DNA from: a virus | Virus record (IMG/VR): IMGVR_UViG_3300045944_000063 | Coordinates: 1 to 24,832 of that record | Strand: one strand, 5' to 3' | Length of the DNA stretch: 24,832 bases | Part shown: positions 2,409 through 23,088 of the stretch, in pieces | How positions within the stretch are numbered: position 1 is the first letter of the stretch | How the letters are laid out: the number at the start of each line of letters is the position of its first letter | Made by a program: the position numbers and the translations under genes | Notes under the pieces: model-generated | Seen by the model: the letters and a program-made list of their open reading frames with translations, nothing else | Database searches by the model: none | Told to the model about the DNA's origin: nothing

Positions 2409-2700
2409 CTATTTCTCCTTTTGTGTAGCTGGCTGCCATATTGGTTGCATGTAGCTGCCAAGATAGATGCCTCTTATTAATGCATCGAGTGTCATGACAG
2501 CTATGTGCAGCTTCATGTCCAGGAGGCTTTGGCCCACGATATGCCTCACAGACAATTCCAGTTAGTCTTTGCATCTTACCATCTATCGCCATATGAGGGT
2601 AGCGATGGGAAGCCAAGGCATATGTCCAAATAATACACTCGTCTGTTTCACTTGCCAGCGCCCTGAATAGAGCCTTGCTCAGTAGTCCGTGCTTGGTCAT
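2380..2700 (-). CDS. HNH endonuclease, paralogue of the one in the polymerase gene
   Basis: A 106-residue homing-type endonuclease. It shares with the 604-984 protein the pattern ALA-ET-ECIIW, then a CEA/CEQA segment, then AAHSCH-RCINK-HLSW and a final NM, so both descend from a common ancestor by duplication or repeated invasion. GGAG precedes the ATG by seven bases. It overlaps the methyltransferase gene by 53 bases upstream and the DUF6378-like gene by 29 bases downstream, so it is wedged into a tight gene pair. I see no sign that it splits a conserved domain here. The last ~17 residues of the methyltransferase may be replacement sequence made by the insertion. Confidence 0.85.
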   Translation of the reverse strand: MTKHGLLSKALFRALASETDECIIWTYALASHRYPHMAIDGKMQRLTGIVCEAYRGPKPPGHEAAHSCHDTRCINKRHLSWQLHATNMAASYTKGEIDGTTSNPQS

Positions 2701-4096
2701 GTATGTTCTCCTTTATTAATAGCTGGTTCATTCTGGCTTTACTTCTAAATCTATTTAGCTCTATCACCGCGTCCGCGTAGTACCGTTCTGACTTCTCGAT
2801 GCCGAATACCGAAGCTGCACCGAGGCTCTCTGCCGCCCGAAGTGATGTGCCGGATCCGGCAGTTGGGTCAAGCATCCTCGATTGCTGGTCGACAAACATG
2901 CTAAAGAAGTAACGCAGCATGGGCTCTGGCTTCTCTGCTGGATGTATCGATCTCGAGATTGGACAAGAGTACACGTCAGAGACGGACCTAATGATCTTTC
3001 TATCTCCTCTGGAGATGACCAAAGCTGTTTCATAGATATGCCTAGCACGTCTCGCAGCGTCGGACACCACACCGCTGTTGTCGGACTTGTGCCAGATGAG
3101 AGGGATTCGGAAGGTTCTGAACCCCAAAGCATCTTCGAAACTTTTGAAAAAGCTGAGGACATCGGACAGTAACTCCGTTTGAAACCAGACCATCATGTGA
3201 GCCGAGGTCGAGACCACATTGTCAAAGCTATCGAGTAGCACACTGCACAGATTCCAGAAGATCTCTGGGCTATCCTCATACGTCGGGAGGTCCTTGCCGA
3301 CATTAATCTGACTGTTCCGGAGGCCTGCGCCAGCTCCATAAGGGAAGTCGCAATGCACAAAGTTAAATTTAGGTCCCCTGTATGTGGCAGCCCACTCGGT
3401 GAAGTCCTCACAGATCAAGTCCCGTGTGGCTGGCCGCAGCTCGATGGTGGGCTCAGGTGTCGTCAGAGGAATGACGCTTGGGAGTAATGTTGCCAAGTTC
3501 AGCGACGTAATCGAAGTAGACGCTGGAGGTGCCTTCGACGCCTCCGCTATACCCACTAGCATGTCGTCGAACTTCCGATCTTGTTTCCTCTGCAATATGT
3601 TGAATGCTGTAGTCAACGAGGCCGCCTCCTCGATTTCGAAGTCTGATCTCATGGCCTCTGCAAGAGCAATGTAGCGTGATACAGACTGACTGGTCACACC
3701 TAAGCGTTCCGCTGTCCGTGACTGGTTCCATTCCGGGTCTTTAGCCTCCAACCGTTGGTGAATGTCTGCAGCTGCCCGGCAGCGTTCCTGCCAAGTCAGA
3801 TCAACGCGCTTGAGGTTCTCTTCCAGCTCTATGATCTTAGCCTCAGTCTCGGGCAGCGATTCTATGTCGATGACTGGGATCAGAGGCTTGCCCATGACCT
3901 TAAAGGCTGTGAGACGTCGCTCACCAGCCACCAGGACATTGCCCTCTCTAACACAGATAGGGTTAATAAGGCCAAGAGTACTAGGAAGATAAGGCTCATT
4001 CTGCGTGATAGAGGCCACCAGATCCTCCACCTCCACCTGCTTCCTCTGCCTCTCATCCCTGTTCACCACTATGTCGTCAACGTTAGCTAACCGCAT
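2648..4096 (-). CDS. ParB-like domain fused to DNA methyltransferase
   Basis: A 482-residue fusion. Residues ~1-150 resemble ParB/Srx proteins: VLVAGERRLTAF at 54-65, the ENLKRVDLTWQER box at 93-105 and a helix-turn-helix at 127-142 (RTAERLGVTSQSVSRY). Residues ~215-450 are an S-adenosylmethionine-dependent amino-methyltransferase of the circularly ordered type. Catalytic motif IV is DFPY at 250-253, where DPPY or NPPY is usual. HPAEKP (385-390) comes before the cofactor motif LDPTAGSGTS (410-418). Such fusions in phages are thought to modify phage DNA against restriction. The target base cannot be read from the sequence. I start at ATG 4096 because GGAG lies six bases upstream. Longer starts at 4108 or GTG 4135 lack a site and 4135 falls in the terminator hairpin. 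Confidence 0.85.
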   Translation of the reverse strand: MRLANVDDIVVNRDERQRKQVEVEDLVASITQNEPYLPSTLGLINPICVREGNVLVAGERRLTAFKVMGKPLIPVIDIESLPETEAKIIELEENLKRVDLTWQERCRAAADIHQRLEAKDPEWNQSRTAERLGVTSQSVSRYIALAEAMRSDFEIEEAASLTTAFNILQRKQDRKFDDMLVGIAEASKAPPASTSITSLNLATLLPSVIPLTTPEPTIELRPATRDLICEDFTEWAATYRGPKFNFVHCDFPYGAGAGLRNSQINVGKDLPTYEDSPEIFWNLCSVLLDSFDNVVSTSAHMMVWFQTELLSDVLSFFKSFEDALGFRTFRIPLIWHKSDNSGVVSDAARRARHIYETALVISRGDRKIIRSVSDVYSCPISRSIHPAEKPEPMLRYFFSMFVDQQSRMLDPTAGSGTSLRAAESLGAASVFGIEKSERYYADAVIELNRFRSKARMNQLLIKENIHDQARTTEQGSIQGAGK

Positions 4097-4116
4097 CTGG
4101 ATCTCCATAGAGCGCG

Positions 4117-4150
4117 AGAAAACCAGAGGCAGCACTTCGCTGCCTCTGGT
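4117..4150 (-). terminator. Rho-independent-type terminator or attenuator
   Basis: A perfect 12-base-pair stem (4122-4133 pairs with 4139-4150) with a five-base loop. On the minus strand it is followed by TTTT then CTCG. It lies just after the DUF669-like gene and only ~20 bases before the methyltransferase start. With no room for a separate promoter, it probably lowers rather than abolishes downstream expression. Confidence 0.65.
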
Positions 4151-16264: not shown

Positions 16265-17143
16265 ATGGACATAGACGACATTATGGCTGAGATTGGGCTG
16301 CAACTGCATCCGGCACGCGGACGCAAGCCAGCTCAAGGCATCGCAGTTGGGGAGCCGCGACCTTTGACGGCCGCGGACGTGGCTCTGGCCCTCCAAGCCC
16401 CCCTGCCATTACCGACTGCGATGCCGCCCCCAATTGCCAAGATCCGCTCCAGGCATCACCAACTCGCACAGCTGCTCGCGATGGGACAGACCGATTGGGA
16501 GATCTCCCTGGCCCTCGGGTATTCCCCATCGCGAATCTCTGTCCTCAAAGCGGACCCCACCTTCCGGGAGCTTTTGTCCTTCTATGAAAAACAGCAAGCG
16601 GATCTCAAGCTGGATATTAGCACCAGGCTTACAGGGATTTCAATGGAAGCGTTGGAGACTCTACAGCAGCGCCTGGATGACGACCCAGAAGACTTCTCGA
16701 ATCGGGAACTCATGGATCTTGCTGAACTGTCCCTTGATCGAACAGGCCACGGGAAGTCCTCTACGGTACAAGTTCTACATGGCCTCGACGAGGAAACCGC
16801 TGAGTTTCTCAAATCACAGCATCAAACGCATCGCCTTGGGGCGGTCCACAACCTCTCGGAGGGTCAGGTAATCGATGTTACACCAGTCCCCGAGACCTCA
16901 GAGTCCGGCCGAAGGCCGCGCGACGTCGCGGCCTCATCGTCTTCGAGTCCCTCAGAGTCTTCAGGACGTGAAGATGCTAGCCTCCCGGCCGCACTTCATC
17001 CCGGTTCCGAGGCCACGGTCGGGGAGCACGGTCTCGAAGGGTTTGGCGTATCAGAAAAGGTGGCTGAGGCATTGCGAGACGCTCGCGGGCCTGGCGGCCG
17101 GACCTTTCAGCCACAGGTTATTTACGGGGATAAAGCGGAATGA
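16265..17143 (+). CDS. Terminase small subunit-like protein
   Basis: A 292-residue protein expected to recognise phage DNA for packaging. Residues ~64-96 form a helix-turn-helix of the terminase type (HHQLAQLLAMGQTDWEISLA then LGYSPSRISVLKADPTF), followed by the helical ISTRLTGISMEALETLQQRL region and the 'R-x-L-M-D-L-A-E-x-x-L-D-R-T-G' block typical of these proteins. The last ~110 residues are low-complexity with a serine run and glycine-rich end. They coincide with a 170-base overlap with the nuclease gene in the +1 frame. The large subunit lies ~6.3 kb away. Length is above the common 150-200, due to the tail. Confidence 0.8.
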   Translation: MDIDDIMAEIGLQLHPARGRKPAQGIAVGEPRPLTAADVALALQAPLPLPTAMPPPIAKIRSRHHQLAQLLAMGQTDWEISLALGYSPSRISVLKADPTFRELLSFYEKQQADLKLDISTRLTGISMEALETLQQRLDDDPEDFSNRELMDLAELSLDRTGHGKSSTVQVLHGLDEETAEFLKSQHQTHRLGAVHNLSEGQVIDVTPVPETSESGRRPRDVAASSSSSPSESSGREDASLPAALHPGSEATVGEHGLEGFGVSEKVAEALRDARGPGGRTFQPQVIYGDKAE

Positions 17144-17495
17144 CCTTGAGTTCCGGCCTGAGCAGTGGTTTATCTACGCCGACAGCAACGGGATTGGCTA
17201 CGCAGAGGCAGACCTCGTCATCGCCATTAAGCCAGCGAGGATCGTTTTACTCTTTGAAAACAAGAGGACGCATAAGGATCGGGGTCTTGTGCAACTCGGG
17301 CAACTCTACCGTCCGTTACTGGAGTTTGTCTATCCTGGGTTTGCCGTTTTCGGGCTCCTCGTATGCCGTAACCTTGATCCGTCTGTCAACCGCCGGTACC
17401 TCGTGGCCTCGCTTCAAGATTGGTTTGACCTCTTGGAGGCCGGACTCATCGCAGGAACTGAAGTTCCCCTCTACTCCCTTTGTTGGAGACCCTAG
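16974..17495 (+). CDS. PD-(D/E)XK-like nuclease overlapping the small terminase
   Basis: A 173-residue protein. After a basic lead come SKGLAYQKRWLRHCETLAG, then WFIYADSNGIGYAEADLVI with the likely catalytic aspartate, LLFENKRT with the E-x-K pair, and QLGQLYRPLLEF with Q-x3-Y. This order (D, then E-x-K, then Q-x3-Y) is that of PD-(D/E)XK enzymes. Many phages keep such a nuclease near packaging genes, perhaps to resolve branched DNA, but the exact role is inferred. I start at ATG 16974 because AGGA lies seven bases upstream. An earlier ATG at 16875 lacks a site and would overlap more. Confidence 0.7.
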   Translation: MLASRPHFIPVPRPRSGSTVSKGLAYQKRWLRHCETLAGLAAGPFSHRLFTGIKRNDLEFRPEQWFIYADSNGIGYAEADLVIAIKPARIVLLFENKRTHKDRGLVQLGQLYRPLLEFVYPGFAVFGLLVCRNLDPSVNRRYLVASLQDWFDLLEAGLIAGTEVPLYSLCWRP

Positions 17496-19669: not shown

Positions 19670-20142
19670 ACCAAGCCGATGACTTTGTAATGAAGAGACT
19701 GCCCTTTGGCACTTGGCTCTGGGATCAGATCAATCCCTTTGGAGAACCCAGGGTGCCGGATGAGTTCCAGATTGCTCCCGGTAAAACTGATCGTCTGCCA
19801 GCTAACACTATCGAGGGACTTCTGGAGCAGTTTAATGATCCTCCGCCGGGAATAATGCCGAGTCCAGGTCTGCCACATGAGCTGCCTCCAGTTGGGCCAC
19901 CGATGGATCAGTGGGGAGATTACTTTTCGGAGGGACCACCGGAGCGCTATCACGGACTTCCCTTTGAGAAGAACCAAGGGGCCACGATGGAGGAGAAGCT
20001 GCTGCAATGGGATGACTACTTTAATCAGCGGCAGAATCCGCCCTACTATAGTGATGAAAATACTACGAACTTTCAGAAGAACCGGCCAAGCAATTCGATC
20101 GAGGAATACTTCTGGAAAGGACTAGGACCTCGGGTACGATGA
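19663..20142 (+). CDS. Protein with repeated aromatic-acidic motifs, function unknown
   Basis: A 159-residue proline-rich protein, probably disordered, built around a recurring short motif: EGLLEQFNDPPPG, DQWGDYFSEGPP, LLQWDDYFNQRQNPP and SIEEYFWKG. The repeated pattern (acidic/W, then D-Y-F or E-Y-F, then a proline pair) looks like a set of docking peptides for a partner. GGGAGG lies nine bases before the ATG. It ends in a four-base overlap (ATGA) with the endolysin gene. Confidence 0.6.
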   Translation: MVDQADDFVMKRLPFGTWLWDQINPFGEPRVPDEFQIAPGKTDRLPANTIEGLLEQFNDPPPGIMPSPGLPHELPPVGPPMDQWGDYFSEGPPERYHGLPFEKNQGATMEEKLLQWDDYFNQRQNPPYYSDENTTNFQKNRPSNSIEEYFWKGLGPRVR

Positions 20143-20855
20143 GAATTGACGTCATCGATCTCAGCCATCATAACACCGCGCACTCGGGAGAAGCGGTGAG
20201 CAACTCTGGTGTGATTGGAGTCATCCACAAAGCTACGGAGGGACTGACCTATGTCGATAACACGCTATTTCCTCGCGCTAAGCGTGCTATGGAACTGGGT
20301 CTTTGCTGGAGCACTTATCATTTCTTACGCCCTGGTGATATGGAAGCCCAGATGAATCATTACCTTGGCACAATAAAGCCGGTGCAAGGGGAACGGATCT
20401 GCTTAGATCATGAGGACGATGGAGTTTCGCTGGAAGATCTCAAAGTGTGCGTCAGCTACGTCCTTCAACTGAGGCCCGATCTACAAATCACCATATACTC
20501 GGGTCATCTGATAAAGGAGCAACTTGGGAGTGAACACGATGATTACTTGGCTAAAAACACTAGTCTCTGGATTGCGCAGTACACCTCTGGAAGTCCCACC
20601 TGGCCCAAAGGAACCTGGCCTAGCTACACCCTCTGGCAGTACACCGACAAGGGAAGAGTTCCAGGAATCGAAGGAAACTGCGACTGTAACCAGTTCAACG
20701 GATCCAGAGACAACTGCATTAAGTGGTTCGGCCCCGTGGGTTCAGAAGTTGCACCTGGACCAGACGTCAGGCCCGAGGACAAAAAAGTCTCCATCACCAT
20801 TAACACGGACGAAGGGGTCGCAGTCTCGATCCTCGTCAACGGGAAAGAAAGGTAG
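20139..20855 (+). CDS. GH25 muramidase (endolysin or virion-associated lysozyme)
   Basis: A 238-residue peptidoglycan hydrolase cutting the N-acetylmuramic acid bond. Residues 1-200 are a glycoside hydrolase 25 domain: IDLSHHN (D7) at the start, VIHKATEGLTYVD, YHFLRPGD, the catalytic CLDHED pair (D90 and E92), IYSGH, LWIAQYTSG, and the closing LWQYTDKG with CDCNQFNG. A short C-terminal segment (residues ~205-238, SITINTDEGVAVSILVNGK) is outside the known domain. There is no signal peptide, so it needs a holin or is carried in the virion. No holin is certain in the window. It starts by ATGA coupling with the gene before it. Confidence 0.92.
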   Translation: MRIDVIDLSHHNTAHSGEAVSNSGVIGVIHKATEGLTYVDNTLFPRAKRAMELGLCWSTYHFLRPGDMEAQMNHYLGTIKPVQGERICLDHEDDGVSLEDLKVCVSYVLQLRPDLQITIYSGHLIKEQLGSEHDDYLAKNTSLWIAQYTSGSPTWPKGTWPSYTLWQYTDKGRVPGIEGNCDCNQFNGSRDNCIKWFGPVGSEVAPGPDVRPEDKKVSITINTDEGVAVSILVNGKER

Positions 20856-20860
20856 CGGCC

Positions 20861-21136
20861 ATGGGAAGCCCAGCAAGTAGTGGCAGTAGCTCTGGTGGAG
20901 GAGGAGATCCGATCCTTATGGGCCTAATGAGGCCGGGGAAGGAAGACCCTAAGCAAGGCATGATGCGGATGGGGAATATGTTCGCGAATCAGGCTGGGCT
21001 GAGTGGGCCTTACGGGACTGTTGGAGGAGGCAGCACCAAAGGGAAGCCACAGCAGTCTACGCTGAGAGCACCGACACCTGCACCGCAACCAGTTTATGAG
21101 AATACATCTGGTCCAATGCCGTGGGCTCTGAAGTAG
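20861..21136 (+). CDS. Gly/Ser/Pro-rich small protein of unknown function
   Basis: Ninety-one residues. A glycine/serine start (SSGSSSGGGG) leads to DPILMGLMRPGKEDPKQGMM then RMGNMFANQAGLSGPYGTVG, and a proline-rich end. The DPILMGL and methionine-rich part recalls NPMLMGL in the 17559-17936 protein, and both end with a PYG motif. AAGG lies eight bases before the ATG. The stop is directly followed by the next ATG, so the two are coupled. Confidence 0.55.
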   Translation: MGSPASSGSSSGGGGDPILMGLMRPGKEDPKQGMMRMGNMFANQAGLSGPYGTVGGGSTKGKPQQSTLRAPTPAPQPVYENTSGPMPWALK

Positions 21137-21985
21137 ATGGCACAAGTAGTTATCAGGAAGAAATTGGCGCATCTGGAACGTGATCTTGCAGAGGTCGCGA
21201 CTCCGCCGTATACGATCTCTCCGATGGAGGGGACTAACGATGCGTATCTGGTGGAGGGCGATCACATTGAGGCGTTTGCTATAGAGAGGGGTGTGCTACC
21301 TTCAACTCCTGATGAGATCATAGAGGAAGAAGTTCCGGCCTGGGTTCCCACTGATGCCAAAATCCACATCGATCTGGTCGGCGGCAGTCCACAGGGGCGG
21401 GCGTGGGTGGAGGGCACCGGCGAGGTGGCGGTCGAGACGCTGCTGGGTGCTGATCCGAATACGGATAGTGCATGGGGTGCGACGGATTATGACCCCGGCA
21501 ATCTGATAGTGGACGGTTATGCCGCAGCGACCCCAATCGCATTGATTGGAGTGGCACTAATCAAAGTGCTGGACAACGCGACTTTGGTTATCAGAACAGC
21601 TGTCGCAGACGACGTAAGCATATCGCTGGCATGGGTGTCAGAAGACGGCAACGATGCGCTTGAAGTCGATCTTGGCATTGGAGTGCCAAATGTTCGGGCC
21701 TATAGCTGGAATGGCACTCTAGACAGCATTATTTCTGATGCCGTTAACGGAGATGTTGGCGAACTCAATGGCGCTGCGGTTACGATTACCGCTACGCGGC
21801 TGGATATAGCCGTCAATGGATCAGCGGCGATTGCTGGTACTGTAAGCAGTACCGATAGGCCTCCGGGCAATCCATTGGTTGCCATGCTGGTGGATGCCAA
21901 TGCCTCTTCGCCTGTGCAGTCCATCACTCTCTACGACCCGCTGCCCGACACGACAGGGCTTTCTGAATTGTCAGAGGTATCTTGA
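21137..21985 (+). CDS. Modular beta-rich virion-type protein A
   Basis: A 282-residue protein. Residues 1-70 form a module shared with the next gene (QVVIRKKLAHLERDLAEVAT, TPPYT, then TNDAYLVEGDHIE). From ~75 onward the sequence is beta-rich, with many D, G and T turns (SLAWVSEDGNDALEVDLGIG, then AVTITATRLDIAVNGSAAIA). It could be a lectin-like or jelly-roll head or tail decoration. No enzyme motif. The last base of its stop is the first base of the next start (TGATG). The virion assignment rests on position and composition. Confidence 0.6.
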   Translation: MAQVVIRKKLAHLERDLAEVATPPYTISPMEGTNDAYLVEGDHIEAFAIERGVLPSTPDEIIEEEVPAWVPTDAKIHIDLVGGSPQGRAWVEGTGEVAVETLLGADPNTDSAWGATDYDPGNLIVDGYAAATPIALIGVALIKVLDNATLVIRTAVADDVSISLAWVSEDGNDALEVDLGIGVPNVRAYSWNGTLDSIISDAVNGDVGELNGAAVTITATRLDIAVNGSAAIAGTVSSTDRPPGNPLVAMLVDANASSPVQSITLYDPLPDTTGLSELSEVS

Positions 21986-22827
21986 TGGCTAAGCTACCAC
22001 AAGTGATCGTTCGACATTCGTTTGAGAAGCTTCGACAGGAGCTGCGGGAGGTTGGGACTCCGCCCTTTACGACTCAGGCTGATGGGTTCCATGTGACGGA
22101 CGGTGCTGGGAGGACGATGGGCTATTGGTTTATTTATGACCCGCGCACAATTCCAGTTGGGATCACGCTGGATAGTATTAATGACACGATCTTAGTCGAG
22201 GGGACAATCGTGCCGGACTATTGCTACCAGAAGGGCATTTTGGAGTCTACGGAGGCAGAATGGATTGATACCTCTAAGCTGATTCCGCCGGTTCCGCCTC
22301 CTCTGAAGCCCACTGTGGTCAAATTGACTCCATATTTCGCTATGCTTGGCAGCGCAGATGTAGTTATGAAGGTGAATGGGACTAATTTCACTGTCAACTC
22401 CAAGATTGTGTTTAATGGAGGTGAGGAGCCGACGACTTTCGTGTCTGCGACGGAAGTTAGGACGACTGTAAAGCCCTCAACGGCTAGTATGGCGGTTTCG
22501 GTGCCAGTTTGGGTGAGAAATTCTCCGGTGCTGGAGTCGAATAGCCGCGATTTCATCTTTTATGCCTCTAGTGCAGAGTTGCGGTTAGACTCTATAACGC
22601 CTACAACGGCTCCGAGGGGCACGATGGTGACAGTTACAGCGGTTGGAGCTGGCTTTTATCCTGATGACAAGTTCATGGTGGATACTAAAGACCATTTGGT
22701 AGTGTACACTGACGCAAAGAATGTGAAGGCTGGGTTTAATTCTGGAGGACCGAAGACGCTCACTCTTAAATTGACACGAGCGGACAACTCTAGGAGTTCA
22801 AATAGCAAACAGTTCACGGTGACATAG
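21985..22827 (+). CDS. Modular virion-type protein B with IPT/TIG-like repeats
   Basis: A 280-residue protein. Residues 1-100 hold the module shared with the preceding gene (QVIVRHSFEKLRQELREVGT, then SINDTILVEGTIV), with an extra insert. After a proline linker (LIPPVPPPLKPTV) come two Ig-like IPT/TIG-type units: one around VVKLTPYFAMLGSADVVMKV with VNGTNF and IVFNG, the second around LDSITPTTAPRGTMVTVTAV with GAGFYPDDKF. Such Ig-like domains decorate phage heads and tails and bind sugars or cells weakly. ATG 21985 has GAGG seven bases upstream. The TTG just before it is less likely. Confidence 0.7.
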   Translation: MAKLPQVIVRHSFEKLRQELREVGTPPFTTQADGFHVTDGAGRTMGYWFIYDPRTIPVGITLDSINDTILVEGTIVPDYCYQKGILESTEAEWIDTSKLIPPVPPPLKPTVVKLTPYFAMLGSADVVMKVNGTNFTVNSKIVFNGGEEPTTFVSATEVRTTVKPSTASMAVSVPVWVRNSPVLESNSRDFIFYASSAELRLDSITPTTAPRGTMVTVTAVGAGFYPDDKFMVDTKDHLVVYTDAKNVKAGFNSGGPKTLTLKLTRADNSRSSNSKQFTVT

Positions 22828-22836
22828 GAGATTCTG

Positions 22837-23088
22837 ATGCCAGAAGTTGACGAGAGATTAAGTGCGCCTGAAGGGGCGGAAGCGACTGATTTCTGCGTGA
22901 TTTGGGAGCCAAAAGCGACAGTTGATGCCCTGATTGCCAGTTTGGGCATTACGGGCTTGACGACATCGACCAAAGCTGATGGTTCTGTTAAAGTGGTCGG
23001 TGCAAATACCTGTGTTTATGTCTCGCAACGGGGCATTAACATGGGCTGCGTCGGTGAGGACACTTATCTTGTGAGCAGTGTAGATTAG
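22837..23088 (+). CDS. Small protein of unknown function, 83 aa
   Basis: An acidic lead (PEVDERLSAPEGAEATDFCV), then a likely alpha/beta unit (VDALIASLGITGLTTSTKAD, NTCVYVSQRGINMGC). There is no recognised family. AGGAG lies six bases before the ATG and it follows protein B by nine bases. Its place among virion-type genes suggests a minor structural part, but this is only context. Confidence 0.55.
   Translation: MPEVDERLSAPEGAEATDFCVIWEPKATVDALIASLGITGLTTSTKADGSVKVVGANTCVYVSQRGINMGCVGEDTYLVSSVD

Follow-up and report, generated by a model that had tools for sequence, protein, structure and literature searches.

Two neighbouring genes of an uncultured virus encode proteins, P0001 and P0002, that share one small N-terminal module and continue into unlike bodies. 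We tentatively regard both as accessory proteins of the virion surface, with capsid decoration of a podophage as their most likely role; the module would then serve as the base and the beta-type bodies would be displayed. Their location on the virion, the anchoring by the module and the exposure and binding role of the bodies are what we infer from the sequence, and the same applies to the oligomer state and the target of the two proteins.

The gene pair and its genome

The window, the whole stretch of DNA analysed, is a virus record of 24,832 bases. Its minus strand holds replication genes (uracil-DNA glycosylase/3'-5' exonuclease, ParB-methyltransferase, Sak4-like ATPase, PD-(D/E)XK exonuclease and UvrD-type helicase), and on the plus strand a TerS-like gene is followed by a GH25 endolysin, a Gly/Ser-rich ORF, P0001, P0002, two short ORFs and a truncated TerL. 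The pair therefore lies on the late strand in a packaging/lysis block, flanked by TerS and the endolysin on one side and by TerL on the other.

20139-20855, plus strand: GH25 endolysin gene
20861-21136, plus strand: short Gly/Ser-rich ORF
21137-21985, plus strand: P0001 (ORF1), 282 aa
21137..21325, plus strand: module of P0001 (residues 1-63), with QVVIR, the helix LERDLAEVATPPYT, NDAYLVEG and RGVLPST; from BLASTP, shuffles and profile search
21353..21985, plus strand: body of P0001 (residues 73-282 and the stop), probably beta-rich, no relatives found
21983-21987, plus strand: TGATG overlap of the P0001 stop and the P0002 start, read from the sequence, with AGAGG about 10 nt upstream
21985-22827, plus strand: P0002 (ORF2), 280 aa from the ATG at 21985
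21985..22269, plus strand: module of P0002 (residues 1-95); from BLASTP, shuffles and profile search
22078..22164, plus strand: 29-residue insertion in the P0002 module (residues 32-60); from the pairwise alignment
22270..22308, plus strand: proline-rich linker DTSKLIPPVPPPLK from the module to the first TIG unit, containing PPVPPPLKP; from the translation
22306..22545, plus strand: first TIG/IPT unit of P0002; Pfam TIG, with 62.6 bits to NF058597 here (family match at residues 109-179)
22579..22824, plus strand: second, more divergent TIG unit of P0002 (about residues 199-280); second Pfam/NCBIfam stretch
from 23441, plus strand: large terminase, truncated

The ORF caller offers a TTG at 21982 as an alternative to the ATG at 21985. 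Because the P0002 start overlaps the P0001 stop, and the P0001 ATG comes directly after the stop of the preceding ORF, coupled translation of the gene set is probable, that of P0001 and P0002 included. Neither protein has an apparent N-terminal signal sequence, and export by the host is accordingly unlikely.

In the nearest contig, G001 (IMGVR_UViG_3300045284_000404, 50.5 kb), the terminase is 78% identical to that of the window, and much of the replication block is common to both. Compared with Caulobacter phage Kuura, which is a podophage by microscopy (PMC9959647), G001 shows 46% identity in the capsid, 42% in the portal and 41% in the terminase; its major capsid protein gene is at L005 12769-14037. 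This resemblance makes a podovirus form likely, and the source virus is likely an uncultured short-tailed phage of a sparsely sampled podophage group.

Several other arrangements were observed in these genomes. The TerS-like ORF (16265-17143) and a PD-(D/E)XK-nuclease-like ORF, assigned by motif (16875-17495), share about 270 bases, the overlap being in the +1 frame. G001 has the same overlap, and in Kuura the two domains form one fused ORF annotated as small terminase. This may be a fusion that has been split or, alternatively, a candidate +1 frameshift. At 965-2029 a uracil-DNA glycosylase is fused to a 3'-5' exonuclease domain of the DNA polymerase A type, and a separate minus-strand ORF (1-432) matches a Kuura gene annotated as DNA polymerase; the window, G001 and Kuura have this arrangement in common. 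A ParB-N-like domain is fused to an N6/N4 DNA methylase at 2648-4135 and is 64% conserved in G001. The ORF at 14634-15227 matches two G001 ORFs near the two ends of that contig (L005 202-825 and L007 9726-10337), which may be paralogues. The interval between TerS and TerL in G001 holds a protein of about 400 aa (L005 4705-5907) with an HEFQH motif, a possible metalloprotease by that motif, which PHROGs do not match. Finally, the low-complexity short ORF just upstream of the module genes (20861-21136) and another in G001 (L005 6970-7326) have similar YEN-x-x-G-x-MPWALK tails.

The shared module and the two bodies

An earlier note, made from the letters of this DNA, had proposed that the two proteins share an N-terminal module. 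Residues 1-63 of P0001 align with residues 4-95 of P0002 (BLASTP 37.7 bits, E = 1e-7 for a single comparison) across one 29-residue insertion in P0002. The Smith-Waterman score of 84 stands about 12 standard deviations above the mean of 5,000 shuffles (26 +/- 5, maximum 56), none of which reaches it. The module is therefore borne out; a profile of the two copies found no third one among the 451 ORFs of the window, and an 83-aa ORF at 22837-23088 was rejected as a candidate. The shared pattern consists of QV[IV][IV]R, the helix end L-x-x-[DE]-L-x-E-V-[AG]-T-P-P-[YF]-T, ND-x-x-LVEG and [RK]G[VI]L-x-ST; the helix motif given before, E-x-x-L-x-x-E-V, is corrected to this form. Single-sequence AlphaFold2 models of P0001 and P0002 have mean pLDDT values of 34.2 and 32.9, below usable confidence; both show a helix near residues 13-22, the position of the aligned motif, which offers it weak support. 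The module looks like a small alpha/beta domain. It matches no Pfam family (searched at E up to 1 for P0002 and up to 10 for P0001 and for P0004, the G001 protein described below), PHROG or NCBIfam entry, known tail and spike anchor families included, and the statement that it belongs to no named family holds.

Beyond the module the proteins diverge, as had been claimed: the likeness between their bodies is at chance level, with 344 of 500 shuffles scoring as high. In P0002, two stretches match Pfam PF01833 (TIG; 1.8e-9, 37.9 bits against a gathering cut-off of 20.9) and two match NCBIfam NF058597 (the CoaZ repeat, or 'choice-of-anchor Z repeating domain'; 2.6e-19, 69 bits against a curated cut-off of 30). 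P0002 thus belongs to both families above their curated cut-offs, in agreement with the two IPT/TIG-like units first read by eye. P0001 matches neither PF01833 nor NF058597 and, lacking the former, falls outside the IPT/TIG family.

The P0001 body gave nothing above chance in Pfam, PHROGs, PDB sequences or phage tblastn. Three candidates were discarded: an NCBIfam match of P0001 to an efflux pump (E = 0.094), taken as chance; a weak tblastn match of the body to Arthrobacter phage BruhMoment, on the strand opposite the gene; and one to Pseudomonas phage Shamal (E = 10), with no domain. The description of this body as one large beta-rich domain survives in a weak form, since crude propensities (32% strand, 24% helix) moderately favour strands; no family match backs it and AlphaFold2 failed. 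A hydrophobic stretch at residues 134-152 (KD 2.06) contains K, D and N and reads as strands. The last strands of the body (SITLYDPLPDTTGLSELS) hint at a possible concanavalin/LamG-like fold.

Module and TIG domains in other genomes

One further protein, from G001, is relevant to the module.

L003 2759-3262: P0004 of G001, 167 aa, with one TIG unit

The P0004 TIG unit matches PF01833 and NF058597 (55.9 bits for the latter, against the cut-off of 30). It is close to the first TIG unit of P0002, with an alignment score of 164 where shuffles give 27 +/- 5, and it resembles the second as well, at a score that none of 1,000 shuffles reaches. Ahead of this single unit, the N-terminus (VLIYEEEEDIRETLDEIG...NGGFILTGEDAEAYANHRGI) weakly resembles the module. 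The score against the P0001 module is reached by 2 of 5,000 shuffles and that against the two-module profile by 5 of 5,000, while the P0002 module alone gives no significant match (299 of 5,000); in an open search of the G001 ORFs this N-terminus ranks second, with E about 0.8. As the adjoining TIG unit makes this stretch the expected place for a module, we take the homology as probable, and the N-terminus as a probable, not proven, third copy. The position of the gene differs, P0004 lying before the endolysin gene in G001 and P0001 and P0002 after it in the window.

The module was not found in the other proteins of G001, predicted tail fibres included, and so does not seem to be the tail-fibre anchor of this group. 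In IMG/VR, four scans, one each for P0001, P0002, P0004 and the module alignment, and a search by degenerate DNA pattern returned G001 only, plus a second contig through its TIG domain; because the scans work by matching short exact peptides, more distant copies of the module may have escaped them. Three IMG/VR terminase scans gave no relative besides G001, and a terminase scan of bacterial genomes gave one remote Dehalococcoidia contig, in which the module is absent. The search with the module across phage records that the earlier note had suggested thus yielded the probable G001 copy and none in 50,697 phage records (INPHARED): tblastn with whole P0001 and P0002 (E up to 1) and with the P0004 N-terminus returned nothing, and the mycobacteriophage RecE-like exonucleases returned by the module alone (E up to 10) lie at E of 2 or more and were taken as chance. 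Nor was the module found in eight phage records with a related capsid or terminase (Kuura, Mel-JY34, CRP-810 from 20 kb onward, VS-ABTNL-3, LS06-2018-MD01, Tiera, EBPR podovirus 3 and PaMx41), and these searches found no cultured relative that carries it. Weak module hits in an outgroup sample of 151 Chloroflexota genomes (best E = 0.013 per genome) were also taken as chance.

The second contig, L002 (IMGVR_UViG_3300022894_000009), is a soil-phage contig. Two of its proteins have this same domain, TIG/CoaZ, at 71 and 69 bits, behind other, low-complexity N-termini, the module being absent. Their genes lie a few ORFs upstream of one whose product reads as a major capsid protein, and the match of an L002 TIG protein to the PHROG 'Hoc-like head decoration' is non-significant (E = 0.31). 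The module is thus followed by TIG units in P0002, and probably in P0004, and by an unrelated body in P0001, and TIG units occur with and without it; because they sit behind other N-termini in L002, module and bodies appear to be separately combined. These mixed pairings are the main support for a design of exchangeable base and body. The proposed common base gains some support from P0004 and L002, though it does not look like a tail-fibre anchor.

The CoaZ/TIG domain is above the cut-off in 31 of 101 Chloroflexota genomes. Since it is common there, bacterial proteins may be the source of the phage copies; in the genomes sampled it occurs mostly in long reading frames, whereas the phage proteins are short and carry it behind an unrelated small module.

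Possible roles of the pair

In the arrangement that we propose, the small alpha/beta module would fix each protein to one class of particle site, a flexible linker (proline-rich in P0002) would follow, and the exposed beta-type body would come last, as two TIG/Ig-like domains in P0002 and an unclassified body in P0001. One coupled transcript would make both proteins, giving a particle with two displayed bodies on one type of base, and the bodies might contact cell-surface or environmental polymers weakly.

The closest likeness is to T5 pb10, a protein of 164 aa whose helical N-terminal domain, of about 70 residues, binds the capsid and is joined through a poly-proline linker to an Ig-like domain that is exposed (PMC5292684). 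By sequence, P0002 has the same layout of two domains, the module and C-terminal Ig-like units, with a proline-rich linker between them; P0004 is of similar length (167 aa) and has both domains without such a linker. Homology to the pb10 N-terminal domain was rejected (783, 160 and 1348 of 2,000 shuffles at or above the score for P0001, P0002 and P0004), and the TIG units have no sequence similarity to its Ig domain. The pb10 N-terminal domain is all-helical where the module looks alpha/beta, and pb10 is a single gene adjoining the head genes where P0001 and P0002 are a pair before TerL. The likeness is therefore one of design, not membership. The Ig-like decoration proteins Hoc of T4 and gp17 of N4, accessory phage-particle proteins with tandem beta-sandwich domains, are functional analogues without implied homology.

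Capsid decoration is consistent with this layout, with the common module before unlike bodies and before TIG again, probably, in P0004, with the L002 TIG genes near a putative capsid gene, and with the late-strand location; Ig-like domains are also common in phage decoration proteins (PMC7602432). Against it stand the AlphaFold2 confidence (pLDDT 34 and 33), a module unlike the pb10 capsid-binding domain, the location of the genes, which precede TerL instead of adjoining the capsid gene and share their region with small accessory genes, the hydrophobic stretch of P0001 and the failure of the searches to find a cultured relative with the module. Beta-type bodies and Ig-like domains are frequent in tail fibres too (PMC7602432), and a dock that carries two bodies would suit a flexible host range. 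On this second reading the pair belongs to the tail or adsorption apparatus: the module would attach to an adaptor, nozzle or fibre of the short tail, and the bodies would bind receptors, either as alternatives or as a pair. We consider this unlikely, as the module is missing from the predicted tail-fibre proteins of G001, the genes lie outside the tail block of that genome, and P0001 and P0002 are short and have none of the collagen-like or collar features of fibres. The absence from these fibres, together with that of a signal sequence, is why we favour decoration.

Lower still we place a role outside the virion, as moron-like accessory proteins that work inside the infected cell or leave it at lysis, with the common N-terminus a trace of tandem duplication followed by replacement of a body. 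The window, G001 and Kuura differ greatly in the interval between TerS and TerL, as an accessory region would be expected to, and the genes come after the endolysin. However, a signal sequence for export is lacking, bacterial TIG domains usually act outside cells, and tandem duplication alone is compatible with a virion role. Least probable is a hetero-oligomer in which P0001 and P0002 join through the module as an assembly domain rather than a dock. Adjoining, overlapping genes with paralogous N-termini would suit it, but G001 yielded a single module copy, so a hetero-pair is not required. Module proteins were not found in relatives such as Kuura, a comparative hint that the decoration we favour may be dispensable for particle formation.

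It is possible, though doubtful, that the module is a new virion-docking domain that places the two bodies at equivalent sites, giving a mixed surface, and is reused with other bodies by related phages as a natural plug-in display. The base-and-display idea of the earlier note is a reasonable hypothesis that has gained modest support. A conserved base with exchangeable exposed domains is already known in phage surface proteins, one gene at a time; if the idea is true, two coupled genes on one base would show how a single particle can carry two displays at a time, and the small module would become a candidate for use as a docking tag. The present value lies mainly in annotation, in an unnamed domain from a poorly sampled podophage group.
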